Of a stretch of DNA of 64,000 bases, positions 2,482-61,960 are shown one piece after another (the stretch's first letter is position 1; each line of letters opens with the position of its first letter). The position numbers and the translations under genes are program-made. This stretch comes from Tetradesmus obliquus (Eukaryota; Chlorophyta; Chlorophyceae; Sphaeropleales; Scenedesmaceae): the NCBI GenBank assembly GCA_030272155.1, contig CP126192.1, positions 7,598,501 through 7,662,500 of the forward strand. Direction: 5' to 3'. A model generated the notes under the pieces. It was given only the letters and a program-made list of their open reading frames with translations. It searched no databases and had not been told where the DNA came from.

Positions 2482-5400
2482 ATGTTTGCCCTCAGCCACC
2501 GCGTTGGCCGTCCTGGGATGGTAAGCTATAGCTAATGTGTCACTGCTTAGCATATAGTATGGCCTCTCGTTCACAGCTGTACTTACCTGTGCGCAGCTGA
2601 TCAGCTCAAGTGCAGATAGCAGCCTCAATTGGGGGTTGCAACCCACCTTAGCTCCAGCTGTACTGGCAGAATTCTGCCTCTGAGCCGCTCGTTCTCAAGC
2701 TGCCACCTGCTGCTATCTCTCTACGCACAAAGCTCACTATACCCACCGCTTCCGCTGTGCTACACAACTGCATTGCAGGCTGCTGCTGCGCGCCCTGCCA
2801 GCGCTCGCAGCAGCATGCCGTTGCTGCCACTGCGCGCAGCCACCCGAGGGCCTGCTGCTCTGCGAGTAGTTGCTTTCCGTGATGATGACAAGCAGCCTTT
2901 GAAGAAGCAGCCCAGTATGAAGCGGCTAGACTCCCTCAAGATGAAGACAAATGAGGCCAAGACAGTGCAGCGCAAGAACAAGCAGCAGCTGCAGAAGACA
3001 ATCAACAAGCGTGAGCAGTGTGGCTTGCATGCTGCAAGCAACAAGGGCCCGCACTGCTGCATGTTCCAATGACAGCACCACAGGCAGCAGTAGCAGCAGC
3101 AGCATCTTCAGCTGTATTCAATGAGGCGGCCGCAGCAGTTGCTGCAGCTAACCAGCTTAGCTGCAATCGTGCCCTGCGGCAGTGCTGGCAACAGGATCAA
3201 TGGGCCTCTGACAGTATGCTGCTGCTGCTGCTGCCGCCGCCACAGGCCTGCCAGATATTGAGGCACCGGTTGCCAACAAGCCCACGGTGTACAGCATCAA
3301 CACCGCTGTGCTGGCACTGGCTGCTGGCCTGGCAGCCTCCAACCCTCAACTGGTGCGGCGCTGCGCGTGCCTGTTGGTTTGCAGCTGGCACAAACTTGCT
3401 GAGCACAGCAGCACACCTGTCAGCTGCTGCACCACAGCCGCACAGCGTCCACCCAGCAGCATGCCAGTGCGAGACCCTGCCTGCATGCTGCCCTACACAA
3501 ACACACACAGGCAGCAGGCATCCTGTTCAAGCCCTCCTTCCTGGCTGGCGGGGGTGCCACCTCATCGCTGATCCTGCCGCTGATGCTGCTGATGCTGCTG
3601 CTGCTGCTGCTGATGCTGCCGCATTGTGCAGGCCGCAGGCATCCTGTTCAAGCCCTCCTTCCTGGCTGGCGGGGGTGCTGCCTCATCGCTGATCCTGCCG
3701 CTGATGCAGATCCTGTCACTGGGCTGGTCTGCTGCTGCTGTGACAAACTTCGTACAGGGGGTGAGTGTGGTTTCAACAGTTGCATTCTTTATGTGACAGG
3801 CAGCTGTTGTAACATAGTGCATGCAGGAGAACAGCACACAGCAACTGTTGTTATAGTTGTCACGCACAGCAGCCTTGGGTGGTAGAGCTTGCCCAGCTCT
3901 GACAGTGCCTGGGCATTGTGCTGCATAATCATGCATGTAACATGTTGGACAACAATTGTAACAACTGCCGCCGAACACGCAGGATGGCGCCATCAAGGAC
4001 GACCTGGCCTCCACACTGCACAAGCGCCTCAACGCCAGCCTCTCAACCTTCAGCATCGCACAGCTGGGCCTGCTGGTGAGCGGCTGAATCCAATGTTTGG
4101 TGTTGCAGCTTTCCATTAATTATACGCTGTACTAAACAGAAAGAGCGAAAGAACAGTATGCAGATGTATTGTGCCTGCAAGCACAGTGAAGCTTGCAAGC
4201 ATGCATAAGTCGTTCAGCAGGAGGCTCGCAGATGGCACAGCAACTCCATTGCATTACATTACATTACATGCTCCACTCAACGAGGAGTGGGAACCCCAAT
4301 CAGGAGCCAACGAGAGACTCTATAAACATAAGCAGCCACCAATGTGCATTGCCACACTTTTCACTCAGCTTTGTTCTGTGCTTCGTTTTCGCAGGGCCTG
4401 CTGCTCACGCCCCTATCCGCCAGCATCCTGGTTGGTGCTCAGGGCTCCACCATTCCCAGCAGAGCACGCCATGCCATGCCATTCCGGGAATGCTTTGACG
4501 TGTGTTGTTTCTCCTTGTTGCAGGGCCTGCTGCTGACTCCGCTGTCAGCCAGCATCCTGGATGGTGCTCAGGGCTCAAGAGATCCTCACCAAAGCAGGCC
4601 TGGCAGTGCTTGGGGCTGGCGTGCTGTTCCAGCTGTGTGTGGCCGGTGTAAAACAACAAAACTTAGGAAATCTGGTCAAAACTGAAATGTATATGTGCGT
4701 TTTTAAACCTGCTGCAGGGCCTGCTGCTGACCCCGCTGTCAGCCAGCATCCTAGATGGTGCACAAGGCTCAGAGATCCTCAACCAGACTGGCGTGGCAGT
4801 GCTTGGGGCTGGCGTGCTGTTCCAGCTGTACGTGGCCGGGGTGAACTACTCACGCAACGCACCTGAGGGCTACAACCCTGTCGCAGATGCCAAGGTGGGT
4901 GGGCATGCATGTGGGCAAGCATGTGGGCAAGCATATGTGGGGTGTGCCATGCTTATGTGCTGCATTGTGGCTGGAAGCAGTACTATCGCCAATGGGGATA
5001 GGGGGAGCTCCGCGTCCAGTCAACCCCTGTTGCGGGAGGTACAGCAAACGTGCAAAAGTGGTGCGCTGCTGCTGCTGTCTGCACAGCAGTGCTGGGGTGC
5101 GGAGCACTGCCAGTGCACGGAGCATGGCTTGCAGTGCAGGGCTGATGCCAGCTCTGCTGCCAGCACAATGCTGCTCGCGTTGGCAGTCCACCATAAACAC
5201 TGGTGCTGCTGCTGCCGCTGCTGATGCCGCTGATCCTGCGTTTGCATACCTGGGTCAACGACGCCAAGAATTTTATCACTGACGCCTCCGAAGGCAGCTC
5301 TCCTTGGTTATTCATTGCGTATCATTTGTGCTGCTGCTCTTTGCTTTTTGCTGTGCAGACCCCGATCAATGACGCCAAGAACATATTTACTGGCGTCACC

Positions 5401-6843
5401 GGCGCCGGCGGCAGCTCTACCGGCTACGCCTACCTCACTGCTGCTGCTGCTGCTGCTGTTCCTTCTGCCTCTGCAGACCTGGGTCAATGACGCCAAGAAC
5501 ATCTTCACAGGCGTCACCGGAGGCAGCTCAACCGGTTACGCCTACCTCACTGCCGCACTGCTGGCGTCTGGGCTAGGCTACATTGCAGCGCCGCTGCCAA
5601 CGCTGCAGGCAGTTTTTGGAGGCAGCGTGGCATCTGCTGGGCCTGAGTCCATCGTGCTGTGGCAGCTGATCGGCGCTGGCGTGTCGATGCTGGTTGCACC
5701 ATGGGCACTCAGCCTGAAGGTATGGGCTAGCAACTTGCAGAAGTTGACCAGGCTGTTGTTTTGGCGCTGAAATGCATGGCAGGTGCCTTTTTGTTATACC
5801 AAGATGCAGATGTTATTAGCCTGCTGTTGGCTACAAGCGGTTCGCACAGCTACAGCCTGCACCCGCAAAACCTTATATGCTAGGAGGTTGTGGGGGTGTA
5901 AACTTGCTGCTGCTGCTGCTGCTGCTGCCACTGCAGGAGGCAGCTGCAGGCAACCAGCTGTCTGACGTGCGCTACAAGCTGCTCAACATCGGCCTGCTGT
6001 CTGCAGGCATTGGGCACCTCCTGGTGCTGCAGGTGGGCCTGTGATGTTATTTTTTTGTTCTGTAGTCTCAACAGGTCCTTCTGCTGCACCCCTCAGCTGC
6101 AAGTACAAGCTGTTCTAGATTGCAAGCAGCAATCTGTAGTGTAATCAGTAGTGTAGTGTGTTGTATGTGCACTCGTTGACATCGTGAATTCCTCAGGATG
6201 GGCGTAGCTGGCATTTGCTGTGAGTTGCAGCTTTTATGATATTAGCTGTTAATGCCAGTGCGCAGCGCCCTTGGCAAGCATTTGGTGTTGCAATCAGCAC
6301 CATGCTGACCCAGCGGCGCTGTGCACTGGCATCACACAGTCTGTGAGATTAGCATGCAGCTGCAGCAGGTCTTGCGAGCTTGCCTACTGCACCCACAGCA
6401 CCGTCACCTACTGTTCATCAATTTTATTGGGTCTAGTTCCCTGCTGCCTCATTTACTGCCTCAGCCAAGGCTGATTGTGTGCATTTGCATTTGCCTGGTC
6501 AACTTCTGTGTTCCTGCATTTGCTTGTCTGTTGTGTCACCTGCGTGTGCAGCCCCTGCTGGCCGATTTAGCCAAGTGCTGCCTACAGCACCCCACAGCAG
6601 CTGCCACGGCATACCTCCTGCCCCTGCATGCTGCTGCCCTGTATACTGCTGCTGTTGCCGCTGCTGCTGCTGCAAATGCACATAGCTCCTAACCATGTCT
6701 GCTGTGTGTGCCACTTGCAGCCCCTGCTGGGCGACCCAGCAAGGTCTGGCCCGCTGCTGCCCGTCATTGTGGGCGCCTGGGCGAGTGCTGCCCTGCTTGG
6801 CGGGGTGGGCCTACTGAAGAAGGCTCAGAAGCCCATCCGCTAA
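2482..6843 (+). CDS. chloroplast-targeted eight-helix membrane protein, paralogue A (412 aa)
   Basis: Nine exons: 2482-2520, 2779-3010, 3246-3352, 3632-3760, 3983-4075, 4718-4894, 5477-5719, 5937-6032, 6721-6843. All phases agree and give 412 residues. Exon 1 encodes only MFALSHRVGRPGM. It was chosen because the paralogue has the same 13-codon first exon with the same donor. Residues 1 to about 45 are rich in Ala, Arg and Ser and acid-poor, like a chloroplast transit peptide. A basic, Lys/Gln-rich stretch follows (about 50-90), then about eight hydrophobic segments (near 104-126, 145-167, 190-212, 223-243, 279-302, 316-338, 355-372, 384-404) and a basic tail, KKAQKPIR. I do not recognise the family; a plastid envelope or thylakoid protein is an inference. 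Introns 3, 5 and 6 and the 3' flank carry truncated exon copies. The tandem paralogue at 8631-14994 shares nearly all intron positions. Confidence 0.83.
3511..3600 (+). repeat. truncated copy of exon 4 (paralogue A)
   Basis: After its own acceptor at 3509-3510 it repeats the start of exon 4 (AAGILFKPSFLAGGGA), then passes at the sequence CTGATG into a CTG tract that leads to the true acceptor at 3631. The breakpoint lies where the exon's own Leu/Met codons read CTG ATG, suggesting triplet microhomology. Confidence 0.8.
4396..4650 (+). repeat. two truncated copies of exon 6 (paralogue A)
   Basis: Copies start after CAG acceptors at 4395 and 4524 and repeat the 5' part of exon 6 (GLLLTPLSASIL). 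The second reaches the region encoding VLGAGVLFQL but has one extra A relative to the intact exon (CTCAAGAGATC against CTCAGAGATC), so it would shift the frame if spliced in. The intact exon begins at 4718. Confidence 0.85.
5247..5445 (+). repeat. two truncated copies of exon 7 (paralogue A)
   Basis: The copies near 5247 and 5358 repeat the coding sequence for TWVNDAKNIFTGVTG with substitutions. The second has a good acceptor (GTGCAG at 5357) and an extra GlyAla, and runs into a CTG tract just before the intact exon at 5477. Confidence 0.85.
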
Positions 6844-7115
6844 ACCGCACTCTTCCTAGGGTTTGGGGTTTCGGGGGTGTAGGTAGGATTTAAGCCCTGC
6901 TGGTGAGCACCTGGGCCAGCGCTGCCCTGCTGGGTGGGGTGGGCCTGCTCAAGCGAGCACAGAAGACCACCCACTAAACACCCCTTCAGTGCTAAGGCTG
7001 TAGATGTTTGAAATGGGGAAGCCTGGATTCATGTCTGTTGGCAATCTGGGCAAGCACTGCCTTGCTGGGCGGTGTAGGTCTGCTCAAGCGCTCACAGAGT
7101 GCTGTGACCTTCGAA
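6549..7115 (+). repeat. last-exon copies around the stop of paralogue A
   Basis: An acceptor followed by CCCCTGCTGG at about 6549 is a short 5'-edge copy of the last exon. Beyond the stop at 6843, blocks at about 6890-6977 and 7020-7115 repeat the end of the exon (ASAALLGGVGLLK). The first ends in its own TAA; the second is more diverged. They could act as 3' UTR or as alternative last exons. Confidence 0.75.
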
Positions 7116-8630: not shown

Positions 8631-11600
8631 ATGTTCGCCCTCAACCAGCGCATGTGCAGGCCTGGCATGGTAAGGGCTGATCTTGGTTGAAAGTTGGCAG
8701 TATGCATTAGACACACGAAGACTAATGCGATAGCGATTTTAAACAGGAAATGCACTCTGTCACCTGTCAAACAGCTGATCTGCTGGCCTGTGTATCTCTG
8801 AACAGCAAGGCTACTCATCGCACTGCTGCTGTGCAGCATTGCAGCAGAACAGACAGTACTGCAGACCCAGCTACTGATGCTGATAGACACTATGTTGTAT
8901 GAACACACCAAGCAGCAATAAAACAGGTCCCCTGAGATCTCTTGTTTCTATCAATGCGCACTTGCTGCCCAGCCCTCACCTGACACAGCGCCACCTGTCA
9001 ACTGCTGCTCATCCTGCTACCACGCAGGCTGCTGCTGCCAAGCCCCACAGCAGCACTCTGCTGCCGCTGCGCGCAACAACCCGCAGGCCTGCTGCTCTGC
9101 GTGTGGTGGCCTTCCGTGAAGATGACAGGCAGTCCCAGATCAAGCGGGGCACCCGTGATGCCAAGAACCAGGCTAGGAATGTGGCCAACCAGGGCAAGCA
9201 GCAGCTGCAGAAGGGCAAGAACAACATCAACAGGCGTAAGTGGCGGCTGCAGTTGTAGCAGTGGGGTGTTGTGTGCATCTTTGCCAGTGATATTGTGTCC
9301 GGTCATGTTCTGGCAGCAATGCAGAGCAAATTGCAGATGTGCATTGCCTGAGCCTGAGGCTTGCTGCAGACCAATGCACATGCTGCCAGTGGCACATTGC
9401 ACACCCTGATTAATTCATGTCTGATCTGGTCACAGAAAGGCCAGCCTGTCTACCAGTAGCGTATCAAGCGGCCTGTGACGAACCGAGTAGCGAACGGAGC
9501 AGACATTGCATCACATGTTGATGTTAAGCTGGATGCTGCTGCTGCTGCCTACTGCTGCTGCCTACTGCTGCTGCCATCTGTGATTGCAGGTGTCCAGAGC
9601 GCTGACATCGAGCGCCCCGTTGCCAACAACCCCAACGTGTATGGCATCAACACAGCCGTGCTGGCGCTGGCTGCAGGCTTTGCAGCAGCATCTCCTCTGT
9701 TCGTGAGTGTGACGCAACATTAATTTGATGCTCGACAACATAGCTAGTTGATGCTGCACATGCAGGGTGCGGTTGCAATCCTTGAGAGCCAGCACTGCCG
9801 CTGCGCCTGAACAGTAGCATCAATTTTTGCTGCTGCACACGCTGTTGCCTCCTGCTGCTGCTACTACTGCCTGCACTTGCCACCTCTGTACACTGCCACC
9901 ACACTTCTTCATTCCAGCCTTCTCCGCTGCTGCTGCTGCTGCTGCTGCCACAACCCTTCTTTCTATGCAGACTGCCTCCATTCTGTTCAAGCCTGAGTTC
10001 CTGGCTGCCGGTGGTGCTGGCTCTGCCCTGATTGAGCCGCTGATGCGCATCCTGTCCCTGGGATGGTCATCCGCTGCTGTCACCAACTACGTGCAGGGCG
10101 TGAGTGCCCACGGCTGACACGTGCACTGAGTGCATCAGAAGAAGTACTTCACTGTTCTGCCAGAGCACTTGCTGCTGACAGGCACTGTGTGCTAGCGGCG
10201 CCAGTGAACAAGCATTGTGCATGTACGCGGCTGAGCTGTGGATGCCTGGTTTGGACTGCCAATCTGGTGTGCATACACAACGCGAACTTGCCGTCACTCC
10301 TTCAAAAGGCTACTGTCTGCTGCTGTTGCTGCTGCAGGCTGGTGCCATTGAAGATGACCTGGACAGCCTGCTGCACAAGCGCCTCAATGCGGGCCTGTCC
10401 ACATTCTGCATTGCCCAGGCCCTGCTGCTGGTGAGCTCCTGTAGGGGATGCACACAGCAGGCACAGCTAGCTGCAGCTATGCTGTGCATAGATTGACGAC
10501 CGGTGTGAAGGTACACTTCGTACTTATCACAAGCTCAACAATTGAGGCGACTCAAATTTACACAGCAGCACAAAGGCTTGCACTGGGATGTGAAACTGCA
10601 CCAAGGCAGCGCTAGCACTACTGTGTTCATTCTGCGCTGCAGACCTTCGGCAAAGCTGATCTGTGGCTGGCGATTGAATCAGCACCATTGGCTTTTTCTC
10701 TTGCTGGATACATTCATCAAGCTGGCACTCAGAGCACTCATCAACCTGATACTTAAGTAGCCGTGAGGCAGGGCTTGCCACAGTATTGCAGACCACGATG
10801 GGTAAGGTGTTGTTCTGCACAGGTGTGCCACAACACTGTGCAGACCACATCTTACCTTCTGTGATCAGCTTTGAGCCACGCTCGCATGCTTGCGAGCAGT
10901 CGCTGCTACTGAGTAGACAACAGGCATCGTGCTGTTCATGACCTCAACTTGCAGCGATTGTCGGTTGTGCACATTGCTGTTTAAACCAATTGGGAGCTCC
11001 TGCACCCACCCCGATCACGTGTTTGACTGCAGGGTATCATGCTGATTCCTCTGTCAGAGAACGTCCTGGCGGTGCCCTGGGCACTGACGCTTAACAGCAG
11101 CCACCTAGTTAAAGTACTACGAATACATGGTTGTATGCGCTGTACTGCACTGCAGGGTATTCTGCTGACGCCTCTGTCTCAGAACATCCTGGGCGGTGCC
11201 TTGGGCACTGACGTGCTCAACACCGGTATCCTGGTGGGCCTACCTCCAAACAGTGCCCTAACTAACCCTAATTGCTGCATTACTCCTGCACCCATCCCAA
11301 CCACGTGTTTGGCTGCAGAGTATTCTGCTGACCCCCCTGTCTGACAACATTCTGGGCGGTGCTCTGGGTTCTGATGTGCTCAACATCGGAGGCCTGAGTG
11401 CGCTCTTTCCCCTGCACGCACTGCAGTGCTGAGGAGGCTTTTCAACTGCTGTTTGCCCTGCACCAACCCTGCACACTTGCTTGCCAATTGGCTTCAGGGC
11501 ATCCTGCTGACCCCCCTGTCAGAGAACATCCTGGCTGGCGCCCTAGGCACAGACGTGCTCAACACCTCCGGCCTAATCGGCCTGACAGCCGGTGTGGGCT

Positions 11601-12370
11601 TCCAGCTGTGGGTGGCAAGCGTGAACTACGCACAGAACGCACCAGAGGGCTACAATGCTGTGAAAGACGTGCGGGTGAGTAGGGTGTTGATTGGATGTCG
11701 AAGTTAGCATGTAGATTGGGCCTGACAGCCGGTGTGGGCTTCCAGCTGTGGGTGGCGAGTGTGAATTACGCAAAGAACGCACCGGAGGGCTACAACGCTG
11801 TCAAGGACGTGCGGGTGAGTAGGGTTGTGCTGGGGTTCAGGATTTGAACTTGGGTCTGACAGCCGGTGTGGGCTTCCAGCTGTGGGTGTCGAGTGCGAAC
11901 TACGCATAGAACGCACCAGAAGGCTACAACGCAGTCAAGGACGTCCGGGTGAGCAGGGTTTATTGGGAAATCAGGTTTGAATGTGGTTTTAGGTGTTTGG
12001 TGATGGGTTTGACAGCCGGCGTGGGCTTCCAGCTGTGGGCGAGTGTAAACGAACAGGCAAAGAATGCAACTGAGGATTACAACACAGTGAAGGAAGTGCG
12101 GGTGACAAAGTGATTGTTTAGCAGGCGGGTGCTACAGACACGCTTCATGATCGATGCACGAGGCAAACTCATCCTCTCCTACGCTGCCGCAACACTTGCT
12201 GCAATTCACCAGCATACCTGGGTCAGAGCGGTCACCAAAACGTGTAGCAAACTAGCCAATCAAACAACTACTGCTGCTGCAGGCTTGGATCAGTGAGGTG
12301 GTCAACACCTTCACCGGTGTCAACGGCTTCACCTCCCTGCTGTACGCAATCCCACGTCATCAATACCAAC

Positions 12371-12458
<88 letters not shown>

Positions 12459-13520
12459 CTGCTGCTGCTGTTGCTGTCTTTGAATTTTCTTACGTTTGCA
12501 GGCCTGGATCAGTGAGGTGGCCAACACCTTCACTGGTGTCAATGGCTTCACCTCACTGCTGTACGCCATCCTCACTGTGGGCTTCTTTGGGGCTGGCATC
12601 AGCTACCTGGTGGCACCAGTGCCCATGCTGCAGGTGAGGTGTGATCCACGACAGGTGTTATAACAGTTGTTACAGCTGGGTGATGCGATGTGTCGCATGT
12701 TTTTGTGGCTGGCATAAGCTGCCTGGTGGCGCCTGTGCCCATGCTGCAGGTGAGGTGTGATCCACGACAGGTGTTATAACAGTTGTTACAGCTGGGTAAT
12801 TAGATGTGTCACATGTTTTTGTGGCTGGCATCAGCTACCTGGTGGCACCTGTGCCCATGCTGCAGGTGTGGTGTGGCAATGCAGTGTCACATGGGGCGTG
12901 GGATGTCTTACTTGGAATATGGAACAGCTAGCATGGGTCATGGAACAGCTGACATAGGACATGTGATCTGACATGGGCCGTGTGAACGTAACATTACGTC
13001 GGACAGCTGGACTGAGCTCCATGACATGTGTCCATCCCCTCGGTCCTTCACTCCCTTTCTCCTCTGTCCCCCTTGTTACGCTATGCTGCAGGCGGTGTTT
13101 GGTGGCAGCGTGGCATCTGCTGGCCCCGAGTCAATCGTGCTGTGGCAGCTGATCGGCATTGGGCTGTCCACTATCGTGGCTCCTGCCTGCCTGAGCCTCA
13201 AGGTGGGTTCAGATTGCCTAGTGCCAGATGTTGCCTGTTGACAGGAAAACTTCTGGGTTGAGGCTGGCTGTGAAACGTGCCCTATGCATGCAGCGTGCGG
13301 GATGGATGGCAGAACTGCCTAGTAAAACGGGGCTGACAAGGCGCCTGATGCTTAAGCCATCGTTGTGGTGATCACCTCATGCTCCTGCTGCTGCCGCTGC
13401 GTACTGCTGCTGCCACTGCAGGAGGGTGCTGCTGAAGAGGCGCTGTCTGACGTGCGCTACAAGCTGCTCAACATCGGGCTGCTCACCGCAGGAGTGGGCC
13501 ACTGCCTGGTGCTGCAGGTG

Positions 13521-13560
<40 letters not shown>

Positions 13561-14564
13561 AGGTGAGGCTGCTGCTGCTGCTGCTGCTGCCGCCGCAGTA
13601 TGTCTGCTTTGTCCGGCCACCTGGACATGTCAGGTCAACAGGTCTTGTGCGGGGGTGTACATGCCAGGCAGTGTACAACACTGATGTTTACTGCAGGGGA
13701 GCTGCGTGGCAGCAGACTTGCATCAGAGTCCAGCTGCAAGCTGGTGGTCTTGTTCTTGAGAGCGGGAAAAGCGCATCAGCGTGGCTCCTGCACTCACAAA
13801 CAAGGTGCACCAGATTGCGCGGTGGTAGTGTGCTGCTGAACACCAGAATTGAATGTGTTGTTGAATGTGTTTTGAGGGTACTGTGGAGCGTAAAGCCCCA
13901 CCCTGGACTCTTGATACTATCATGTTAAGCAGTGCATATGCTGGTTGTGTACGTGCTGTAGTGCATCCTGCTGATTCTTAGTCGTGAGGCAGCTTTTTGC
14001 GCCTCAGCAGCCTGCCACAGCCTGGTGCTTGTGATAGTGGAGCATATCCCGGAAATGTGTGCGTCTCCTGTGCCTCCAAGGTTATTAGGCTGGCCTGTGT
14101 GGAATGAATACCTGATGGATATCTGAATAGCACAGCTCAACCTGATAACCGTGTCAGGCATTCACGCTTGCAATGATCACAGCAGCGAGATTTAGTCGTG
14201 TTGAGCATGCTGCACCTCACCCTGTTGGCACAACCCGATGCTTGTGATAGCAGAAAGAGGCCCAGAGCGATGCGTGCCTCACTTAGTCTGACAAGGTTGT
14301 CACGTTGTGCTGTGCAGTTGTGTTTTGTGATTCCAAGACTGAACAGCACAGCACAACCTGAATGACCTTGTCAGCGCATGCACGCGTGTAATGAACAACC
14401 AGCAGCGGGGTTGAGTTTTAGCTGTGTTCAGCATGCCACTGCACCTAACCCTGTTGGCATAACCTGATGCTTTTGATAGCGGAATGAGGCTCGGAGTGAT
14501 GCGTGCCTCACCTGTCTCAACCAGTGACGGCCTCATTCTGAGCACCACCCTAATGCGTGTGCTT

Positions 14565-14609
<45 letters not shown>

Positions 14610-14994
14610 CTCACTTCTCCTGCAGCCCCGTCTGGGCGCCTCGGCCGCTTCAGGTGGCGGCCTCATCCTGAGCACCATCCTGGTGGCTTAACTACTGCTG
14701 CCTCTGCTGCTGCTGTCACTGCTGCTGCTGCTGCTGCTGCTGCTGCCTAACTCTCCTGCAGCCCTGCCTGGGCGATCCCTCCACCTCAGGCGGTGGCCTC
14801 ATCCTGAGCACCATCCTGGTGGCCCTTAGTAATGCTGCCTCTGCTGCTGCTGCTGCTGCTGCTTACTTCTCCTGCAGCCCCGCCTGGGCGATCCCTCCAC
14901 CTCGGGCGGTGGCCTCATCCTGAGCACCATCCTGGTGGCGTGGGGCACTGCTGCTGTGCTGGGCGGCAAGGGCCTGCTCAAGAGCAACAAGTGA
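8631..14994 (+). CDS. chloroplast-targeted eight-helix membrane protein, paralogue B (404 aa)
   Basis: Ten exons: 8631-8669, 9028-9235, 9590-9702, 9971-10099, 10338-10430, 11498-11674, 12502-12633, 13092-13202, 13422-13517, 14878-14994. Phases agree throughout and give 404 residues. It begins MFALNQRMCRPGM, then an Ala/Ser/Arg-rich transit-like segment ending RPAALRVVAFREDD, nearly as in paralogue A. A Lys/Gln-rich linker and about eight hydrophobic segments follow; the protein ends GGKGLLKSNK. The intron positions shared with A sit at the same codons and phases. The exception is one extra intron (12634-13091) that splits what is a single exon (5477-5719) in A. Several introns hold truncated exon copies. 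The family is unrecognised; tandem duplication of one ancestral gene is clear from the sequence. Confidence 0.83.
11036..11400 (+). repeat. three 5'-edge copies of exon 6 (paralogue B)
   Basis: Acceptors at about 11035, 11155 and 11318 are each followed by a copy of the exon start (ILLTPLSENILAGALGTDVL), truncated at different points. The intact exon begins at 11498, downstream of all three. The farthest copy is the shortest and carries the deletion that turns GGALGT into a shifted frame. Confidence 0.88.
11720..12103 (+). repeat. three 3'-edge copies of exon 6 (paralogue B)
   Basis: Downstream of the intact exon (ends 11674), blocks near 11720-11813, 11857-11948 and 12009-12103 repeat its end (LTAGVGFQLWVASVNYA through NAVKDVR) with donors GTGAGTAG, GTGAGCAG and GTGACAAA. 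The second has an in-frame TAG. The third is the most diverged and has the weakest donor, so divergence rises with distance from the exon. Confidence 0.88.
12291..12356 (+). repeat. 5'-edge copy of exon 7a (paralogue B)
   Basis: After a CTGCTGCAG acceptor, the sequence for AWISEVVNTFTGVNGFTSLLY is repeated almost exactly about 210 bp before the intact exon at 12502. The two are separated by a compound CTG/ATG tract. Confidence 0.85.
12373..12475 (+). repeat. compound (CTG)n(ATG)n(CTG)n microsatellite
   Basis: About thirteen CTG units switch to about fifteen ATG (GAT) units and back to five CTG units, inside an intron about 30 bp before the acceptor of exon 7a. The block of uniform ATG units inside a CTG tract shows that one C-to-A variant spread by slippage. 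Confidence 0.9.
12713..12866 (+). repeat. two copies of the exon 7a end with donor (paralogue B)
   Basis: The segment for SYLVAPVPMLQ and its GTGAGGTGTGATCC donor, together with about 70 bp of intron, occurs three times: at the intact exon end (12601-12700), near 12713-12790, and near 12828-12866. The third copy has a changed donor (GTGTGG). Confidence 0.88.
13965..14560 (+). repeat. ~220-bp tandem repeat in last intron of paralogue B
   Basis: A unit containing GATGCTTGTGATAG, then GCGTGCCTCAC, then a motif resembling AGCACAGCNCAACCTGA recurs at about 14024, 14237 and 14465, so the spacing is about 213-228 bp. The last unit merges into a degenerate copy of the start of the last exon (GLILSTTL). 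Copies are diverged. Confidence 0.65.
14622..14830 (+). repeat. two 5'-edge copies of last exon (paralogue B)
   Basis: TCCTGCAG acceptors at about 14621 and 14757 precede copies encoding GGGLILSTILVA; both stop shortly after (TAA and TAG). CTG tracts precede each copy and the intact exon at 14878, so the repeat unit is CTG tract plus acceptor plus exon start. Confidence 0.88.
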
Positions 14995-15908: not shown

Positions 15909-16083
15909 TCAGATGGCTTTCGCCTTCTTCTTGAAGAGCGGCAGTATCAGAACAATCGCCACCGCAAGGCCTGCTTTTGTGCTGGTGCCGTAGATTGCAG
16001 CGATCAGCAGCGGCGGCAGGCCTCCTGTCCGAACCTTGCACTTCTGCGGAGTGAGCTCCGCAATGATCTGCAGCAGCAGCAGC

Positions 16084-16145
<62 letters not shown>

Positions 16146-19100
16146 CAGTGGCGGCGGCTGAAATGAAAAGCCGTACAGCTGAACTCGGCCTTTGACACCA
16201 AGCTCGCAATTTGTTTTGACATGCAGCCAGCAAAGCGGCTGCTGGGACCATCACGAAAGCTGACCACGCTGAAGCTGTCATTTATTAGCAACAGCTGACC
16301 ACAGCACACATAGCTCATACGGCACAGCTTTTGAACACACTGCGCAGCCAAATTCCCCGCACCTTTTCGCACTGCTATTAGACGGCTTTGCCCAACGCCT
16401 CTGAGGTTGTGATCACAGCACGTCGAATGCATGGTACTATATCACCACACCAGCAGCAATCACCCACCACACCCGTCAGCCCACATGAGGCACAGTGTGT
16501 GTCACAGGTCCCTCTCACCTTTTCGCACTGCTTGTAGAAGGCCTTGCCAAGGGCTTCCGATGTTGTGATGACCTCTGCTGCCGCGTGGTACTCCAGCGTG
16601 GCGCCATGTGCCACCATGGCCCGCCACACATTGACCAGCTGCGCAAACTGCTGCAGCAGCTGCTGCAGCTCGCCCTGCGGTGCAAGCAGTGTGCATAGGC
16701 GGTGGCGGCATATTGCATTGAGTCAACCAATTGGTTAGTCAAACTTGCTGTGAATGCACACCCTAAGTAAGAAGCTTGACGTCCACGCACATGGAATCCG
16801 GGTACTCGACCCACTGAACTAGTGTTGACATTGTATGCCAGCATCGGGTGTAGCGCCTGGCGTCGGCAGACAAAACATCGCTGCTCAGACGCGCGACCGA
16901 GTCAACACGACGTCTGAATGGCATGCATGTGGCGAAACTGCTGCTGCTGTGGCTTACCCGGGTCGCCTGCAGCTTAGCGAAGGTCTTCACGTGCGGCACG
17001 TTCTCCTGCAGCAGCACGATGCCGTCATTGACCATGTCCGCGCTGCTGTCAATGGCATCGAGCACGTAGCTCCTGCAGCAGCAGCAGCACCACCACCACC
17101 ACCAGCAGCAGCAGCAGCAGTGAGGATGGCATCACTGGGGCAGAATCTTGACGGCCGACTTCAAGAATCCAAGGTGCTATGCGCTGCTTGCTGCATTAAA
17201 GCACGTTTCAACACATGCAGATGACAAACAGCAGCTGTGGCGACGCAGGTGCCTTGTGTTTGACGCAACATAAAGCAGCGGACACAATGAAACAAACCTG
17301 TGCAGCGCGTCGATGTGCATCTGGCTGTACTGCCCTCCCCAAGAGGTCCATGACAGCGGGTGCGCATTCACCGGCCACAGCCAGTCATGCAAGGTTCAAG
17401 GCTGCCAGAAATGTTGTATGCTATGCGCTGCTGGCTGCTTATGGGTGCGTTTGACCACACGCACGTGCCGCACAGCAGCTGTGACAAAACACGTGCCCAG
17501 CATACACATCATAGTATCAGCAGACACCAACAAACAAACCTGTGCAGCGCGTCGATGTGCATCTGGCTGTACTGCCCTCCCCATGAAGTCCAGGACAGCG
17601 GGTGCGCCCCAACCGACCACAGCCAGTCATGCTGCACCACTTTGCGGCCGGGGTTGTAACCAAGATGAGGAGGCAGCACACCGCCTAGGTGCTGCAGCAC
17701 TGCACTGAGGGCGTGCTTGAGAGGTGATAGGGGGCGGTGAAGGAGGATGCCATCACACATCATGCCTGTGGGGTGCTCGTCCCTGCATGGCATTTCAAAC
17801 AAGGCAGGGGAAGGCGGCAGACCGGTGTTACCAAAATAAGATAGTTTTTGGAATGACTCGATTGCACAATCAAAATGCAAGAAATGCACGCAGTCTGTGA
17901 CCACGTGGCCACACACAGCTGGACCACCAAACACAAACTCACTCTAAATTCACCGTGCGCCACTTGGGGATTGAAAATACGACCTGGGCGCCGAAACAGC
18001 CGTCAAACTCACTGGTTTGCCGCGTTCTCCACCACCAGAATCAGGTCCTCCAGCGCACGTGCGTTGTAGTGCTCGTCAATCAGCACAGGCACATCGCGGT
18101 CCAGCTCAAAAATGAAGACCGGCACGTCCAGCAGCGCGTGGGGGTCGCTGCTGGCTGCTGCTCGAGCCGTGTTGAAGGCGAAGCGCTGCTTGAGGCGTAG
18201 CGCCAGCTCGCGACTGTCCAAATACAGCGCCTCGTTTTCTACAGACACAAGGGACAAAGGCGGCACAACAAGTAAGGACGATTCGTCAATGAGCGCTGCT
18301 TGAGGCGCAGCGCGAGTTTGCGGCTGTCCAGGTAGAGTGCCTCATTTTCTGCGATTAAAAGGCCGCAGCAGACATGCAAACATTCTGATCAGCAAGATGC
18401 CACGCAGCAGGCTGCTTCAGGCGCAGCGCGAGCTTGCGGCTGTCCAGGTACAGCGCCGCATTTTCTACAGACACAAGGAGCAAAGGTGGCACAACGAGTA
18501 AGGACGATTCTGTGGTTGAGAACAACCTTGGGGATGCTTCAGGAGCAGCGCCAGCTCGCGGCTGTGCAAGTACAGCGCTCGTTCTCTGCACAGAAAGTCA
18601 AGGCAGTCAGTCAACCTTGAAAGCATATCATGCAGAGTTCAGAGGTGTGAGCAAAAGCATCATCACCCCAAAACCGCCTGCAACTGCTCACCAACTAGGT
18701 CTCACACAGCATGCGGCATCTGCATGAAGCTGGTGCGCAGGCTGTCATTGATATGACAAAACACAAGACCTGAAAACAGCCATATGCTTGACCCTACGCC
18801 ACTCACTGAATGGGTCTGACACAGCATGCGGCGCTGCAATGAAGCTGGTGCGAAGGCCTACAGCAACACCTTGCAAAACCGCTACCCAATCAACCTTAAA
18901 CCCTAGAATCTCAGCTGCTCACCGACTGGGTCCGACACGGCATGCGGCACTTGCATGAAGCTGGTGCGCAGGCTGACAGCAAAGGCAGCCGCCAGAGCAG
19001 CATCGTCCAGCAGGTTTAGGGTCAGCGTTGAGAACGAAAAGGCCTGGTGGGGCATGGCCAGCCTTGCTAGCTGCTGCTTGAAAGAGTCCAAGTCGAATTG

Positions 19101-19460
19101 CACGCCTGCACAAGAGCCACAGCAACAGTACAGAGTACAGAGAGGATGTTGAAGGTGGCGATTCAGAGGGAGAATGCTTGGTGGGGCATGGCCAGCCTTG
19201 CCAGTTGCTGCTTGAAGGAGTCCAGGTCAAACTGCACACCTGCAGCGTGGTTGGTGCCATGTGTGATATGACGTAAAAACACAAGTACAGCAATGTCCTC
19301 TCTAGCCTCACATATGTATATAAGACATGACAGGCCACGGCTGTTTCCCTGGCTAGGATGGCATCAGCCGCTGTCATGACATGGTCATTGGCTGTGGTAA
19401 GTTGTGATGTTTTGGTCGAGCAGATGCGTACAGTGTTTTGTTCACAACAGTAAGACACCA

Positions 19461-19501
<41 letters not shown>

Positions 19502-21877: not shown

Positions 21878-21923
<46 letters not shown>

Positions 21924-22232: not shown

Positions 22233-22270
<38 letters not shown>

Positions 22271-22879: not shown

Positions 22880-22922
<43 letters not shown>

Positions 22923-44558: not shown

Positions 44559-44590
<32 letters not shown>

Positions 44591-45399: not shown

Positions 45400-45459
<60 letters not shown>

Positions 45460-46048: not shown

Positions 46049-46085
<37 letters not shown>

Positions 46086-46218
46086 GTCCAGCACGAATAC
46101 GACCACCTGCAGGTGAGGGTGCAGTAGATGTTATGCGGCTGTAGCAGCAGCAGCAGCAGCAGTGTCCAGCACGAGTACGACCACCTGCAGGTGAGGGCTC
46201 AGCAAGTGTTGGCAGCTC

Positions 46219-46256
<38 letters not shown>

Positions 46257-46671
46257 GCCTAGCATGAACACGACCACCTGCAGGTGAGGCAGCAATCAGT
46301 TTGTTGGTCAGCAGTGTTTGCTGGTGTATAGAGTAGCTGCTGCTGCTACAACATTCTGCAGGCACCAGTACGCCCACCTCAATACATGTGAAGCACTGCA
46401 GTAGGCAGAGGCCGTCTACCTGAGGAGCGGCTGAATCAGTGTCAATGCAAGCCGCTGATTAACGCCGCTGCTGCTCTTGCTGCTGCTGCTGCTGCCGCAG
46501 GGTGTGCTGTACCACGACCGGATGAAAGCAGCAGAGCTAGAAAAGGTGCGGCCGGAGCTGCTGGCCCTTGAAGAGGCTTTCATCGCAGCACACCCGGACG
46601 TGGCTATTCAGCGCGTGCCGCCGCCAGCAGCAGCAAAAGCGAAGGGCTTTGGAAGCATAGCCAAGCGATGA
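44184..46671 (+). CDS. PDF1B: peptide deformylase, organellar (PDF1B-type)
   Basis: Exons 44184-44322, 45193-45385, 45838-45948 and 46501-46671 join in phase and give about 204 residues of mature enzyme. The enzyme removes the N-formyl group from nascent organelle-encoded proteins. All three metal/active-site motifs are present: GVGLAAPQVG (motif 1), EGCLSFP (motif 2, Cys ligand) and QHEYDH (motif 3, two His ligands and the catalytic Glu). The EGCLSFPKIYADVER form is the bacterial/PDF1B type, not PDF1A. The N-terminal part VIKYPDPRLR and the C-terminal GVLYHDRM also match. The transit peptide is not settled: the frame upstream of 44184 is open through a CTG (poly-Ala) tract from about 44012 and could be part of it, or the CTGCAG at 44178-44183 may be an acceptor. 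The C-terminus extends past the usual end (AKGFGSIAKR). Each intron contains truncated exon copies. Confidence 0.93.
44390..45160 (+). repeat. PDF exon-edge copies in first intron
   Basis: Three copies of the first exon's end (VFEVMYQ plus GTGAGTG-type donor) lie near 44393-44425, 44598-44632 and 44735-44752, some followed by CAG/CAC tracts. Two copies of the second exon's start (DDGVGLAAPQVGVNVRLMV) follow near 44944-45018 and 45069-45145. In the first of these the Gln codon of APQVG is a TAA stop. The second keeps an open frame but reads GVRLAAPQ. Confidence 0.9.
45400..45610 (+). repeat. CTG tract and copy of PDF exon 2 end
   Basis: About eighteen CTG units (45402-45456) follow the exon 2 donor. 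A copy of the exon's end, with GTGTAGGGCTGC in place of GTGGAGGGCTGC and a GTGAGC donor, lies at 45540-45590 and is again followed by CTG units. Confidence 0.88.
45985..46385 (+). repeat. four or five copies of the HEYDHLQ exon end
   Basis: TGTCCAGCACGA(G/A)TACGACCACCTGCAG plus GTGAGG recurs near 45989-46025, 46086-46122 and 46164-46198, then in mutated forms near 46256-46290 (His and Tyr codons changed) and near 46365. CAG tracts separate the copies. The repeated segment encodes the zinc-binding HEYDH motif. Confidence 0.9.
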
Positions 46672-46744: not shown

Positions 46745-46924
46745 TTGTATTCGCTCGGAGCTGGTGGCCCTTGAAGAGGCCTTCATTGCAGCACACCCGG
46801 ATGTGGCCATTCAGCGCGTGCCGCCACCAGCAGCAGCCAAGGCAAAGGGCTTCGGCAGTGTGGCCAAGCGATGAGTTAATTTTACTTTATTTGACAGCTT
46901 GGATGCAGCCTCGGCGCTGGTACC

Positions 46925-46958
<34 letters not shown>

Positions 46959-47546
46959 GGAGTATGTGTGGCAGCAGCTGTGTGTTTTCTGCAGCCATGA
47001 GCTGGCGCTGGTGGCCCTTGAAGAGGCCTTTATTGCAGCACATCCAGATGTGGCCATTCAGCGCGTGCCGCCGCCAGCAGCAGCCAAGGCAAAAGGCTTT
47101 GGCAGTGTGGCCAAGCGATGAGCTAGTTGAGTTCACTGTGCTGGGTTTCAGCAGCAGTGTGTGAGGCAGCAGCTATTTTTCGATGTGATGCCCGGAGCTG
47201 GTTGCCCTTGAAGAGGCGTTCATAGCAGCACACCCGGATGTGGCCTTTCAGCGCGTGCCGCCGCCAGCAGCTGCAAAAGTAAAGGGCTCCGGCAGTGTGG
47301 CCAAGCGATAAGGGGCTCGGCTCGGCAGCAGCAACAGCAGCAGCAGGTTTGTTGGTGTGTGTGGGCTGTCAAACAAAGTGTTCACAAAACGGGTCACCCT
47401 TGCTGGTTTGTTTGAGAGGGATTGGCCGGAGCTGGGGGCTTTTGAAGTGGCCTGCATTGCAGCAACCCGGATGTGGCTCTTCAGCGGCTGCCACCGGCGC
47501 CAGCAGCCAAGGCACACGGCTTCGGCAGCGTTGCTCAAGCGATGAG
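46745..47546 (+). repeat. four copies of PDF last exon beyond the stop
   Basis: Blocks at about 46757-46874, 47005-47121, 47190-47311 and 47427-47546 repeat the end of the last exon (ELVALEEAFIAAHPDVAIQR... through SVAKR and its stop). The first three keep the reading frame and stop; the fourth has lost it in places. Spacing falls between about 180 and 250 bp. Shared changes such as SVAKR in place of the true SIAKR suggest the copies descend from one another. Confidence 0.92.
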
Positions 47547-57717: not shown

Positions 57718-59407
57718 ATGGGCTGTGATGATGACACTCGCATAGCCGAACTACGTTCCGACATCATACCGCGAAAGGACGCAGCAGTGCAGCAGATACT
57801 GTCACAATGGCAGCAGCAAGAGCAGCAGCAGCAGCAGGACACTAGCCAAAACTTGCTGGAGCTCTTGACGTACATGCAGCAGGAGCTGGCAGCACTCCAA
57901 CAGGAGCTCTGCAGTTTAGAAGCACGCAAGCTACAGGAGCAGCAGCAGGATGAGGCAGGTCAGTTCTGTGAAGTTTGCATGTGTCAACAAGCATGCGCAT
58001 CTGCACCAAGAACATGCAGTATCCTTGCAGCACAGTTTGCTGTGTTGAACAACGTAGCGATTGTAAACGTCAGCTTTGGTAGCTGCAGTGCTGCTGAATC
58101 TCCGCTTTCAGCTGTCCAGCATGGGCCTGCATGACTCAGCAGCAGCGAACCTACACTAGGTACCTGATTCTGACATGCCCTGCTTGTGTGTTCCTGCCCC
58201 CCTCACTTTGGACCACAGCAGATGCTGTCACTGCACAGGGTGAGAAGCTGGCTCCAGCAGTGCTGCCATCATTAACCCTGCATGCCTGTGGCAGCACTGA
58301 CGAAGCACGCAGCACACTTGCATGGTGTAGCTGCATGTACAATTGCAAGCAGCAGCTGAGCAGCAAGGCCACCGCCATGCTGCTCCTGCAAGTGTGCAGG
58401 GTGACTGAATACCTTACAGCCCGCTGCTGCCGTTGTGCAGGCAGTTCACGCTTCATCAGGTGTTCTAGAATGTGTTCACATTGCATTGTGTCTTCCAGCT
58501 CACTGATGCACTAGAAGATGGCCGTGTGATGCAACTTACCCGCCAAGCCCTGCCACATCGTCACTGACTGTGCTTCCTGCCGCAGGCCAGCCAAAAGGCG
58601 AGCAGCAGCCAGCAGTAATACACCTGCAAATCCTGCACCGGCGTCATCGCATTCGCCACAGCAAGCCTATCAGCAGCCCCGACGGCAGCAGCAGCAGCAG
58701 CAGCAGTATTAAGACCATTGAGACTAGCAGCAGCCAGCTAGATCTGGCACGGCTCGAGGAGCAGCATGCAGTAAAGATTCTGAAGCTGCTGACAACGCAC
58801 GACTGTGAAGTTCCTGGCGAAGATCAGTATGAAGAGGCGGTGATGCAGCTGCTGACGCTGGAGCCTGGAGGCCATGTGTGGCTCATAGCGCAGAGCACAG
58901 GTGCGGGGCTCGGCATGAGGACTGAATGCTGTTGCAGCACGCGTCGCGTGCGTGTGTGGGTTAGGGCAATGGGGACCATGGAAGCTGTGTGCTGGCACAT
59001 GTGTGGCTCGAGGCACAAAGCACAGATGCGGCAACAGCAGCCCATGTCACGAGCAAGCCAGGAGCTGCTCATTATTTACTGCAAGCACCACCCATGCCCT
59101 TCTGCTGCTGCTCCCGCTGCTGCTGCTGCTGCTGCCGTGCCTGCCCGCAGCCGCCAGCGCAATCAAGGCAGCCGCAGTCAGCTCCGCGTGCTTCCTGTTA
59201 CAAGTCGAGGCAGCCCTCATTGCCTTAGCAGTAATCAAGCAGCAGCTGCGCAACGTGGCCCTCACAAGGGGCCTGCGGCTGGTGGCTAACAATTGGGCGA
59301 GGCTTGGCGGCTGGGGTGTGCGGCTGCTGTGGGGGCAGAAGCCGCCGCCGCTGATGCAGCCGCTGCTGGAGCTGGGGTCCATGGCTCAGCGAGAGATGGA
59401 GCAGTAG
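57718..59407 (+). CDS. unrecognised coiled-coil protein (about 276 aa)
   Basis: Exons 57718-57958, 58222-58239 (micro-exon, may be skipped), 58586-58900 and 59151-59407. All junctions are phase 1 and the frame closes at TAG 59405. It starts MGCDDDTRIAELRSDIIPRK; residues about 5-80 are Gln/Leu/Glu-rich heptads (LLELLTYMQQELAALQQEL), a likely coiled coil. The middle has a Ser run then LARLEEQHAVKILKLLTTHD and YEEAVMQLLTLEPGGHVWL. The last exon reads VIKQQLRNVALTRGLRLVAN, then a Trp/Gly/Pro-rich stretch, and ends LELGSMAQREMEQ. I do not recognise the family. Because the micro-exon and its flanks preserve phase, transcripts with and without it would both be in frame. The 3' flank holds a long array of last-exon copies. 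Confidence 0.6.
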
Positions 59408-59879
59408 TTGTGAAACACAGTGGAGCAGTGAACCCATGCCACCTCCCAGCAGCCAGGGCATGTTGCTTGCAGCCAATCTCCAAGAACCATGTGGTGTAGG
59501 TTCAGACTTTTTGTATTCTGGCCCTCACTTGGGGCCTCAGGCTGGTAGCTAACAACTGGGCGAGGCTTGGCGGCTGGGGTGTGCGGCTGCTGTGGGGGCA
59601 GAAGCTGCCACCGCTGATGCAGCCGCTGCTGGAGCTGGGGTCCATGGCGCAGCGGGAGATGGAGCAGTAGTTCTGGAACGCAGTGAATCAGTGATCCCAT
59701 GCCACCTCCGAGCAGCGAGGGCATGTTGCTTGCAGCCAATCTCCAAGAACCATGTGGTGTAGGTTCAGACTTTTTTGTATTCTGGCCCTCACTTGGGGCC
59801 TCAGGCTGGTAGCTAGCAATTGGGCGAGGCTTGGCGGCTGGGGTGTGCGGCTGCTGTGGGGGCAGAAGCCGCCACCGCT

Positions 59880-60982
59880 GATGCAGCCGCTGCTGGAACT
59901 GGGGTCGATGGCGCAGCGAGAGATGGAGCAGTAGATGTGGACACCCTTGTTCATGCCACCATACGCACAGAGCGTAATGGCTTGAGGCTCTTGTGCAGCA
60001 GCTGCTGGAGCTGCGGTTGCTCCCGCAGAACGGGATGCAGCAGCAATGCTGTGAATGTGGCCTCAGGCTGTTAGCCAACAACTGGGCGAAGCTGGGTGGC
60101 TGCTGTGGGGGCAGAAGCCGCCACCGCTGATGCAGCCGCTGCTGGAGCTGGGGTCGATGGCTCAGCGAGAGATGGAGCAATAGTAGGGGGGGGGGGGGAT
60201 GCAGCCAACCAGTGGCAGCGGTGATGACAACCAGTGGCAGCGGCGGCCGCCCGCCTTGTTGCTGATGCAGCCGGTGCTGGAGCTGGGGTCCATGGCGCAG
60301 CGAGAGATGCAGCAGCAGTAATGTGGACGGATTCCTGCAAAGACAATACGGACAGAAGAGCACAGGCTCGAGCTTCCTGTGCATGCGCAGCTGCGCAGCA
60401 GCACGCTGGGGTGTGCGGCTGATGTGCGGGCAGAAGCCGCCACCGCTGATGCAGCCGCTGCTGGAGCTGGGGTCGATGGCGCAGCGAGAGATGGAGCAAT
60501 AACTGTATAACGCAGTGAAAACAGTGGGCCCATGCCCATTTTCATGTTCAGATCAGCGAGAGAGGCCATGTTGCTTGCAGGCGAACTCAAAGCACCAGTG
60601 TTGTGTGGGTCCAGGCTTCTGTGTCTTGGCGGTAGTTCAGCAAGGATCAGCAGCTGCTGTGGCAGCAGAAGCCGCCACCGCTGATGCAGCCGCTGCTGGA
60701 ACTGGGGTCGATGGCGCAGCGAGAGATGGAGCAGTAGATGTGGACACCCTTGTTCATGCCACCATACGCACAGAGCGTAATGGCTTGAGGCTCTTGTGCA
60801 GCAGCTGCTGGAGCTGCGGTTGCTCCCGCAGAACGGGATGCAGCAGCAATGCTGTGAATGTGGCCTCAGGCTGTTAGCCAACAACTGGGCGAAGCTGGGT
60901 GGCTGCTGTGGGGGCAGAAGCCGCCACCGCTGATGCAGCCGCTGCTGGAGCTGGGGTCGATGGCTCAGCGAGAGATGGAGCG
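59880..60982 (+). repeat. segmental duplication, offset about 801 bp
   Basis: 59880-60175 recurs at 60681-60976 with almost no differences, including the GTGGACACCCTTGTTCATGC block and the GAACGGGATGCAGCAGCAATG block. The copies diverge right after the GAGATGGAGC end. Confidence 0.9.
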
Positions 60983-61800
60983 GAACGCAGTGGATCAGTG
61001 AACCCATGTCACCTCCCAGCAGCGAAGGCATGTTGCTTGCAGCCAATCTCCAAGAACCATGTGGTGTAATATCATACTTTTGCAACGTGGCCCTCACAAG
61101 GGGCCTGCGGCTGGTGGCTAACAATTGGGCGAGGCTAGGTGGCCGGGGTGTGCGGCTGCTGTGGGGCCAGAAGCCGCCACCGCTGATGCAGCCGCTGCTG
61201 GAGCTGGGGTCGATGGCTCAGCGAGAGATGGAGCAATAGTAGGGGGGGGGGGGGGGGGGATGCAGCCAACCAGTGGCAGCGGTGATGACAACCAGTGGCA
61301 GCGGCGGCCGCCCGCCTTGTTGCTGATGCAGCCGGTGCTGGAGCTGGGGTCCATGGCGCAGCGAGAGATGCAGCAGCAGTAATGTGGACGGATTCCTGCA
61401 AAGACAATACGGACAGAAGAGCACAGGCTCGAGCTTCCTGTGCATGCGCAGCTGCGCAGCAGCACGCTGGGGTGTGCGGCTGATGTGCGGGCAGAAGCCG
61501 CCACCGCTGATGCAGCCGCTGCTGGAGCTGGGGTCGATGGCGCAGCGAGAGATGGAGCAATAACTGTATAACGCAGTGAAAACAGTGGGCCCATGCCCAT
61601 TTTCATGTTCAGATCAGCGAGAGAGGCCATGTTGCTTGCAGGCGAACTCAAAGCACCAGTGTTGTGTGGGTCCAGGCTTCTGTGTCTTGGCGGTAGTTCA
61701 GCAAGGATCAGCAGCTGCTGTGGCAGCAGAAGCCGCCACCGCTGATGCAGCCGCTGCTGGAGCTGGGGTCAATGGCTCAACGAGAGATGGAGCAATAACT
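60184..61800 (+). repeat. segmental duplication, offset about 1061 bp, with poly-G
   Basis: 60199-60745 recurs at about 61260-61790 almost without change (GATGCAGCCAACCAGTGGCAG, GAAAACAGTGGGCCCATGCC and others). Each copy is preceded by TAGTA and a G run, of 13 in the first (60186-60198) and 18 in the second (61242-61259). The very low divergence of hundreds of bases contrasts with the unequal G runs. Confidence 0.9.
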
Positions 61801-61960
61801 TATTGAAGGGGTAAGTACAGCCGACCAGTAGCAGCGGCGACGGCCGTTGTTGCTTGCAAGTCAGTTGCGCCGCCTACGCTGGTGCAGCCACTGCGCAGCT
61901 GCTGATGCAGCCGCTGCTGGAGCTGGGGTTGATGGCGCAGTGAGAGATGAAGCAGCAGCA

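Follow-up and report, generated by a model that had tools for sequence, protein, structure and literature searches.

Why should the genes of a green alga be surrounded by pieces of their own exons, and why should these pieces lie so regularly on one side of the exon that they resemble? The question is raised by a 64,000-nt stretch of the Tetradesmus obliquus genome, hereafter the window (contig CP126192.1, positions 7598501-7662500; GC content about 56%), which belongs to an assembly of 104.66 Mb in 17 contigs where TTTAGGG telomere repeats are present. Truncated copies of the 5' edge of an exon lie upstream of the intact exon and truncated copies of the 3' edge lie downstream, as an initial annotation of the window had claimed, and these exon-edge copies with their strict polarity are confirmed here. 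The polarity is the expected result of short-range tandem copying and needs no special machinery; what it leaves unexplained are a narrow step near 120 bp and an excess of events at exon edges. The case singled out earlier as the clearest, exon 6 of a gene named gene 2 below, proved exact, and the GT donor is kept in all three of its downstream copies (full GTGAG in two):

11033-11089, 11156-11224 and 11322-11385, + strand: three 5'-edge copies of exon 11498-11674, upstream (83, 83 and 80% identity)
11498-11674, + strand: intact gene 2 exon, defined by paralogue alignment
11719-11814, 11853-11948 and 12010-12101, + strand: three 3'-edge copies, downstream (92, 88 and 76%)

The reference set comprises 27 exons of four window genes, in whose definition the repeats were not used. 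Nineteen exons come from the alignment of a tandem pair of paralogues (gene 1 and gene 2), six were recognised through the Pfam families Snf7 and peptide deformylase (two of these scoring just below the Pfam cut-off), and the last exons 34166-34249 and 46501-46671 are defined solely by their open reading frames. The joined frames are open in all four genes, and Pfam profile positions continue from exon to exon (Snf7 2-49, 46-109 and 111-157; Pep_deformylase 2-39, 42-105 and 105-142, in exons 1-3 of each gene). The Snf7 gene is presumably VPS60, a name given in the initial annotation; a PDB search with its exon 31073-31276 gave no match, whereas Pfam matched Snf7. The deformylase model covers the exons from 44184 onward. 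The genes and their exon-edge copies are as follows:

2482-6843, + strand: gene 1, with an exon-by-exon protein match to its paralogue gene 2; exons 2482-2520, 2779-3010, 3246-3352, 3632-3760, 3983-4075, 4718-4894, 5477-5719, 5937-6032 and 6721-6843; joined frame open over 1239 bases
3511-3612, + strand: 5'-edge copy of exon 3632-3760, upstream (87%, exon part 1-109 of 129)
4395-4447, + strand: 5'-edge copy of exon 4718-4894, upstream (83%, 1-53 of 177)
4524-4652, + strand: 5'-edge copy of the same exon, upstream (88%, 1-128 of 177)
5248-5300 and 5366-5452, + strand: two 5'-edge copies of exon 5477-5719, upstream (81 and 83%)
6903-6977, + strand: 3'-edge copy of the last exon 6721-6843, past the stop codon (80%, 49-123 of 123)
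7017-7097, + strand: further protein match beyond the last exon of gene 1
8631-14994, + strand: gene 2, with a protein match to gene 1; exons 8631-8669, 9028-9235, 9590-9702, 9971-10099, 10338-10430, 11498-11674, 12502-12633, 13092-13202, 13422-13517 and 14878-14994; joined frame open over 1215 bases
12283-12352, + strand: 5'-edge copy of exon 12502-12633, upstream (91%)
12702-12865, + strand: two 3'-edge copies of exon 12502-12633, downstream, in 116-bp steps (90 and 96%)
14626-14823, + strand: two 5'-edge copies of the last exon 14878-14994, upstream (82 and 97%), outside the filtered set
29528-34249, + strand: VPS60-type Snf7 gene; exons 29528-29728, 31073-31276, 32473-32646 and 34166-34249; joined frame open; exons 1-3 matched by Pfam Snf7, the first below cut-off, the last exon without a match
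30492-31024, + strand: five 5'-edge copies of exon 31073-31276, upstream (84-95%)
31364-31608, + strand: three 3'-edge copies of exon 31073-31276, downstream (95-97%)
31886-32424, + strand: five 5'-edge copies of exon 32473-32646, upstream (75-93%)
32798-33918, + strand: five 3'-edge copies and one internal match of exon 32473-32646, downstream (84-93%)
34278-34705, + strand: three 3'-edge copies of the last VPS60-type exon, past the stop codon (80-88%)
43984-44030, + strand: 5'-edge copy of exon 44184-44322, upstream (87%)
44184-46671, + strand: peptide deformylase gene; exons 44184-44322, 45193-45385, 45838-45948 and 46501-46671; joined frame open; exons 1-3 matched by Pfam Pep_deformylase, the first just below cut-off, the last exon without a match
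44394-44750, + strand: three short 3'-edge copies of exon 44184-44322, downstream (88-96% over 23-24 bp), below the strict filter
44947-45141, + strand: two 5'-edge copies of exon 45193-45385, upstream, in steps of 124 and 122 bp (93 and 90%)
45541-45585, + strand: 3'-edge copy of exon 45193-45385, downstream (87%)
45994-46283, + strand: four short 3'-edge copies of exon 45838-45948, downstream, amid CAG tracts (91-100% over 23-26 bp), below the length required by the strict filter
46756-47545, + strand: four 3'-edge copies of the last deformylase exon, past the stop codon (78-88%)

When all hits to the 27 exons at E 1e-3 are counted, 24 copies of 5' edges lie upstream and 29 copies of 3' edges downstream, together with four internal and two inverted matches; the lone 5'-edge match downstream belongs to the last VPS60-type exon and overlaps a 3' copy. 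A filtered scan, with limits on length, identity and complexity and restricted to exons of at least 50 bp (which drops two of the 27), gave 20 upstream 5'-edge copies, 20 downstream 3'-edge copies, none on the wrong side and one inverted match, 12 of the 25 exons having copies; without the two last exons that lack independent backing, the counts are 20, 13 and 0. This filter loses true short copies, such as those of deformylase exon 45838-45948, and two deformylase exon ends (44321, 45839) were one base off in the polarity scan. The VPS60-type and deformylase genes have their edge copies on the correct sides, and copies of last exons past the stop codon, also claimed earlier, occur in three of the four genes (gene 1, VPS60-type and deformylase), so that the polarity expected of tandem duplication holds even where no splice site exists.

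To what extent does this hold beyond the four genes? Additional exons were predicted by a purpose-written exon-chaining gene finder, both in the window (17 exons; a gene at 48.9-55 kb was missed by its final version and left out of scoring) and in a systematic sample of twenty 10-kb stretches taken at round-number positions on 8 of the 17 contigs (131 exons). Most sample exons are without homology backing; ten exons were given to Pfam, eight of them from the sample, and six of these eight matched a family at E 0.01. Copies lying inside another predicted exon were dropped (six in the sample). The other window exons yielded seven upstream, nine downstream and no wrong-side copies, with 7 of 17 exons concerned, five of the nine downstream copies coming from a doubtful exon at 59232. 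In the sample the counts are 13, 33 and 1, with 21 of 131 exons concerned, among them exons of EFTUD2/Snu114, glutamate-cysteine ligase and Tra1/TRRAP. The single wrong-side match, as well as two of the 33 downstream matches and the three full-length copies in the sample, comes from one doubtful call at position 6357 of stretch L024, a short predicted exon resembling the end of the adjacent exon's array. This exon was kept in the polarity, spacing, splice-dinucleotide and codon counts and left out of the intron-half, distance and private-change tests, and the array at 59232 was left out of the spacing, divergence and codon counts. As a control, exons compared with the flanks of another exon gave two same-strand edge matches in 865 trials. 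No complete exon copy, as tandem duplication of whole exons would leave, was found in the four genes or among the other window exons, and a single inverted copy occurs among the filtered matches to 173 exons. An unfiltered scan of the 148 predicted exons (131 from the sample, 17 from the window) placed 36 5'-edge matches upstream and none downstream, and 63 3'-edge matches downstream with eight upstream (from three exons), beside 69 internal, three full and 66 inverted matches outside exons; it was replaced by the filtered scan, its control having given 618 chance matches in 444 trials. Overall, copies accompany 19 of 42 exons in the window and 21 of 131 in the sample: the statement that most multi-exon genes are affected fits the window, whereas outside it the phenomenon is patchy and most sampled exons are free of copies.

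A head-to-tail copy of a stretch straddling an exon edge leaves one complete exon, which geometry places at the inner end. In a simulation where units of about 124 bp were placed at random, events breaking the coding sequence rejected and the same detection applied, 23 5'-edge copies fell upstream, 25 3'-edge copies downstream and none on the wrong side, with four internal matches and one full match, involving 36 of 140 exons and 14 of 40 simulated genes. The simulated polarity follows from the model itself and serves as an illustration, not as a test.

Three traits go beyond the initial annotation, namely the narrow step of the arrays, the excess of events at exon edges and the patchiness of the loci concerned. 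Regarding the step, 67 of 97 spacings between successive copies are at most 175 bp (median 122, quartiles 115.5-137). The smallest spacing in each array falls at 115-124 bp in 17 of 51 arrays, compared to 3% for units simulated over a broad range (30-600 bp) with detection identical to that for the real arrays (p=5e-15), and it lies below 100 bp in 6% of arrays as against 29% of the simulated ones. Direct repeats away from exons are more broadly spaced (38 pairs, 85 bp upward), and Tandem Repeats Finder gives a trough between 30 and 90 bp.

The copies are adjacent, in the same orientation and at the same locus, as local tandem duplication demands. Genome DNA searches with three exons, in which only the best candidates are scored, reported matches confined to the home locus, 5' parts upstream and 3' parts downstream: seven for exon 31073-31276 (including four of its five upstream copies, and none away from the locus), four for a sampled exon of the Tra1 gene, and three of the four copies past the stop codon for the last deformylase exon. 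Exon-edge copies occur in seven of the twenty sampled stretches, on seven contigs, with an uneven spread (permutation p=0.0002), and five loci with at least eight exons have none at all (permutation p=0.003). Six stretches (L009, L012, L013, L014, L026 and L028) are devoid of any local direct duplication, and the locally duplicated fraction reaches up to 37% in the others, apart from 59% in the satellite-like stretch L025. A tandem array with a 274-bp period occupies L025:1-3954 and inflates the duplicated fraction of the whole sample (13.5%). At an identity of at least 80%, 16 duplication events in the sample involve an exon edge and four lie in introns only (26 in total, three spanning a whole predicted exon and three only touching one); simulation with the same detection gives 40% edge events among these two classes (p=3e-4). 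The corresponding figures in the window are 8 and 6 (of 16). The complexity filter has no bias toward edges, low-complexity tiles making up 139 of 330 at edges and 771 of 2654 in introns. The finding that exon edges are duplicated more often than simulated is thus no more than suggestive, the simulated introns being random sequence.

The arrays are very probably accounted for by recurrent local tandem duplication with a step of about 120 bp, one coding sequence being kept. A local duplication process with this characteristic step (mostly 100-156 bp) would recur in the genome; a unit straddling a 5' edge would leave a truncated exon start upstream of the intact exon, and one that crosses a 3' edge, or the point where the coding sequence ends, would leave a truncated exon end downstream. 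Surviving alleles would be those with one complete reading frame, hence the intact exon at the inner end, and the extra copy would turn into intron or 3' flank and decay, while the array would extend by repetition of the unit and introns would lengthen. Of this account, the polarity, the locality, the length of the step, the pattern of divergence and the greater length of the introns are shown by the data. The mutation itself may proceed by fill-in of staggered nicks or double-strand breaks with end joining, or by replication slippage; selection would presumably remove the other outcomes, and the splicing machinery would disregard the decoys. The initial annotation had proposed tandem duplications whose breakpoints lie one in the exon and one in the intron, followed by selection for one complete exon; this is supported by both the geometry of the polarity and the pattern of divergence. 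If only the intact exon is constrained, the divergence between exon and intron halves should be as measured: between intact exon and copy it is 0.100 in exon halves and 0.181 in intron halves (n=15, p=0.002), whereas between copies it is 0.111 and 0.124 (n=14, p=0.50), which fits a free copy beside a constrained exon. A comparison of the paralogues (one exon pair, 53 bases) finds the copies closer to the exon of their own gene than to that of the other, which places their origin, or their homogenisation, later than the gene duplication.

Several observations weigh against tandem duplication in its simplest form. Among 63 adjacent unit pairs spaced at most 170 bp apart and compared by gapped alignment, the intron halves are recognisably homologous (z>3) in 29, including the arrays with a single filtered copy at L016 9664 and window 21960, and not recognisably so in 34, some of which have exon parts 90-100% identical; in one unalignable pair an internal deletion was seen by eye in the spacer of VPS60 exon 31073. 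A few young arrays (L010 2546, L019 3690 and window 12502) have an outermost copy with hardly any match past the exon edge, a pattern not foreseen under simple tandem duplication. Either non-coding sequence is eroded by deletion, or some of the founding events copied little past the edge. Third codon positions are favoured among changes private to younger copies (11/18/27 at positions 1, 2 and 3, p=0.02), to a degree exceeding pure neutral decay. Inner breakpoints show no excess of CTG/CAG words (34 of 66, with 29.6 expected, s.d. 3.9), and CTG/CAG repeats are accordingly rejected as breakpoint anchors. Finally, the copies do differ in their level of divergence, as claimed earlier, and this does not rise with distance: the nearest copy is the closer in 13 arrays and the farthest in 10, with two ties, and an age gradient outward from the exon is rejected.

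Could these features be better explained otherwise? Edge-limited matches such as those of L010 2546 (at 100% identity), window 12502 and L019 3690 would be expected if template switching or end-joining repair placed the copy of an edge segment some 60-110 bp off, the intervening intron not being duplicated, with arrays amplifying afterwards; insertions in rice have been described as tandem or partially tandem duplications in available passages (PMC7407515). Edge-only copying as a general rule, which strict extension had suggested, is weakened by the 29 pairs with homologous intron halves, and similarity also fades near the coding end in copies past stop codons, which suggests that non-coding similarity is lost faster, not that a breakpoint lies at the splice site. 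Such partially tandem insertion, which overlaps with recurrent tandem duplication as a variant of it, appears rather unlikely, though it carries some weight. An artefact of assembly is a natural suspicion, short-repeat arrays being easily misassembled; with filtered copies up to 27% different from their exon, found in seven of twenty stretches on seven contigs and with a polarity far from random, it is extremely improbable, in agreement with the earlier judgement. The narrow unit length may also evoke a mobile element or a dispersed minisatellite with pieces of exons in it, an idea hardly to be entertained when every unit resembles the adjacent exon, filtered copies are almost never inverted and the three genome searches, at least among the candidates scored, report no match elsewhere.

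It may also be asked whether the copies are functional, as alternative exon starts or ends or as splice decoys under selection. Many retain splice dinucleotides (acceptor AG in 33 of 40 copies, donor GT in 41 of 62, the latter including 14 last-exon copies, which have no donor), and their differences from the intact exon are biased toward third codon positions (66/41/222 in the four genes, 99/82/220 in predicted exons). This bias is strongest in shared changes, whether common to some copies (4/0/26 and 3/3/18) or to all (2/1/23 and 5/2/14), as if the copies were snapshots of a constrained exon lineage taken at different times. They also carry 23 frameshift gaps, with in-frame stops in 8 of 74 ungapped copies; together with their divergence, this leads us to reject them as coding exons. 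Their exon and intron halves diverge alike, and copies past stop codons have no role in splicing. A function is therefore improbable, and the copies look like mostly neutral fossils.

Introns containing edge copies are about twice as long as others in the sample (median 692 versus 345 bp, 19 of 141 introns, p=3e-5), with 827 versus 263 bp in the four window genes (11 of 23, p=0.003); longer introns also have more room for copies, and cause and effect are not separated by this comparison. Local duplications occupy 16% of intron bases in the sample and 45% in the four genes. Predicted introns in the sample average 485 bp and coding sequence makes up about 18%, close to the 462 bp and 15.7% of the published T. 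obliquus genome (108 Mb, 57% GC), whose introns are the longest among the five algae tabulated there; the available passages of that account hold no mention of exon-edge arrays (PMC5966456).

Apart from the four reference genes, other features of the window deserve mention. Predicted minus-strand exons at 16.5-25.5 kb display the same polarity as the plus-strand genes. The intron at 12634-13091, between exons 12502-12633 and 13092-13202, exists in gene 2 only, exon 5477-5719 of gene 1 being continuous; it contains two 3'-edge copies, and may represent a case of intron gain or loss between tandem paralogues.

15909-25450, - strand: predicted gene, with edge copies on the right side at exons 16519, 18013, 18923, 21960, 24591 and 25287
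36978-40826, - strand: open frame of 1282 aa
39340-39429, + strand: tRNA-Ser (gct) called by ARAGORN inside that frame, possibly spurious, Rfam having no matches in the window at gathering scores
42520-43826: tandem array (unit 191 bp, higher-order period 383 bp)
59232-61970: 2.7-kb array of highly similar long repeats (unit about 263 bp, higher-order period about 1.1 kb), covering a weakly supported terminal exon

How do these arrays relate to known systems? Duplications in rice reportedly have a size bias of 31 bp. The arrays described here are likewise local and direct and belong to the same 10-1000 bp class as the short tandem or partially tandem duplications among rice insertions, which are attributed to nicks, double-strand breaks and end joining; they differ in their step of about 120 bp, in their recurrence in arrays and in having been studied at exon edges, the rice passage making no mention of exon fragments (PMC7407515, on Vaughn and Bennetzen, 2014). 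Tandem duplication of exon parts is a known source of new introns (PMC3443670, PMC2891723), and there too part of an exon is duplicated and splicing hides the extra copy (PMC2891723, PMC4974935). In those cases, however, a new intron arises within an exon; in the present arrays the growth is of introns and 3' flanks that are already there, and the stretch that is duplicated takes in an exon edge already present. No new intron bounded by duplicated AGGT was encountered, the scored copies lying beyond existing edges and within-exon introns not having been searched for. Nor was the same sequence found in many genes, as introners or mobile elements would require, the three genome searches reporting the home locus only. 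Like the initial annotation, which knew of no account of it as a genome-wide mode of intron growth, we noticed no description of exon-edge arrays or of a 120-bp step in the literature searched, subscription papers being mostly outside its reach. The arrays are best read as a variety of short tandem duplication, with new traits, by which introns grow. A further step, that a genome-specific process of fixed length near 120 bp prefers exon edges and is the main route of intron growth, leaving a fossil record of exons, is tentative and falls somewhat short of an even chance.

The growth of introns is an old question that is usually answered with transposons. Here each unit can be traced to a known adjacent exon, so that the direction and source of each step are measurable and its age can be estimated. 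The narrow length of the duplications is indicative of a particular step in repair or replication, and the fossils beside the exon serve as a nearly neutral clock. They also put gene annotation at risk, decoys with intact splice dinucleotides adjoining the real exons.

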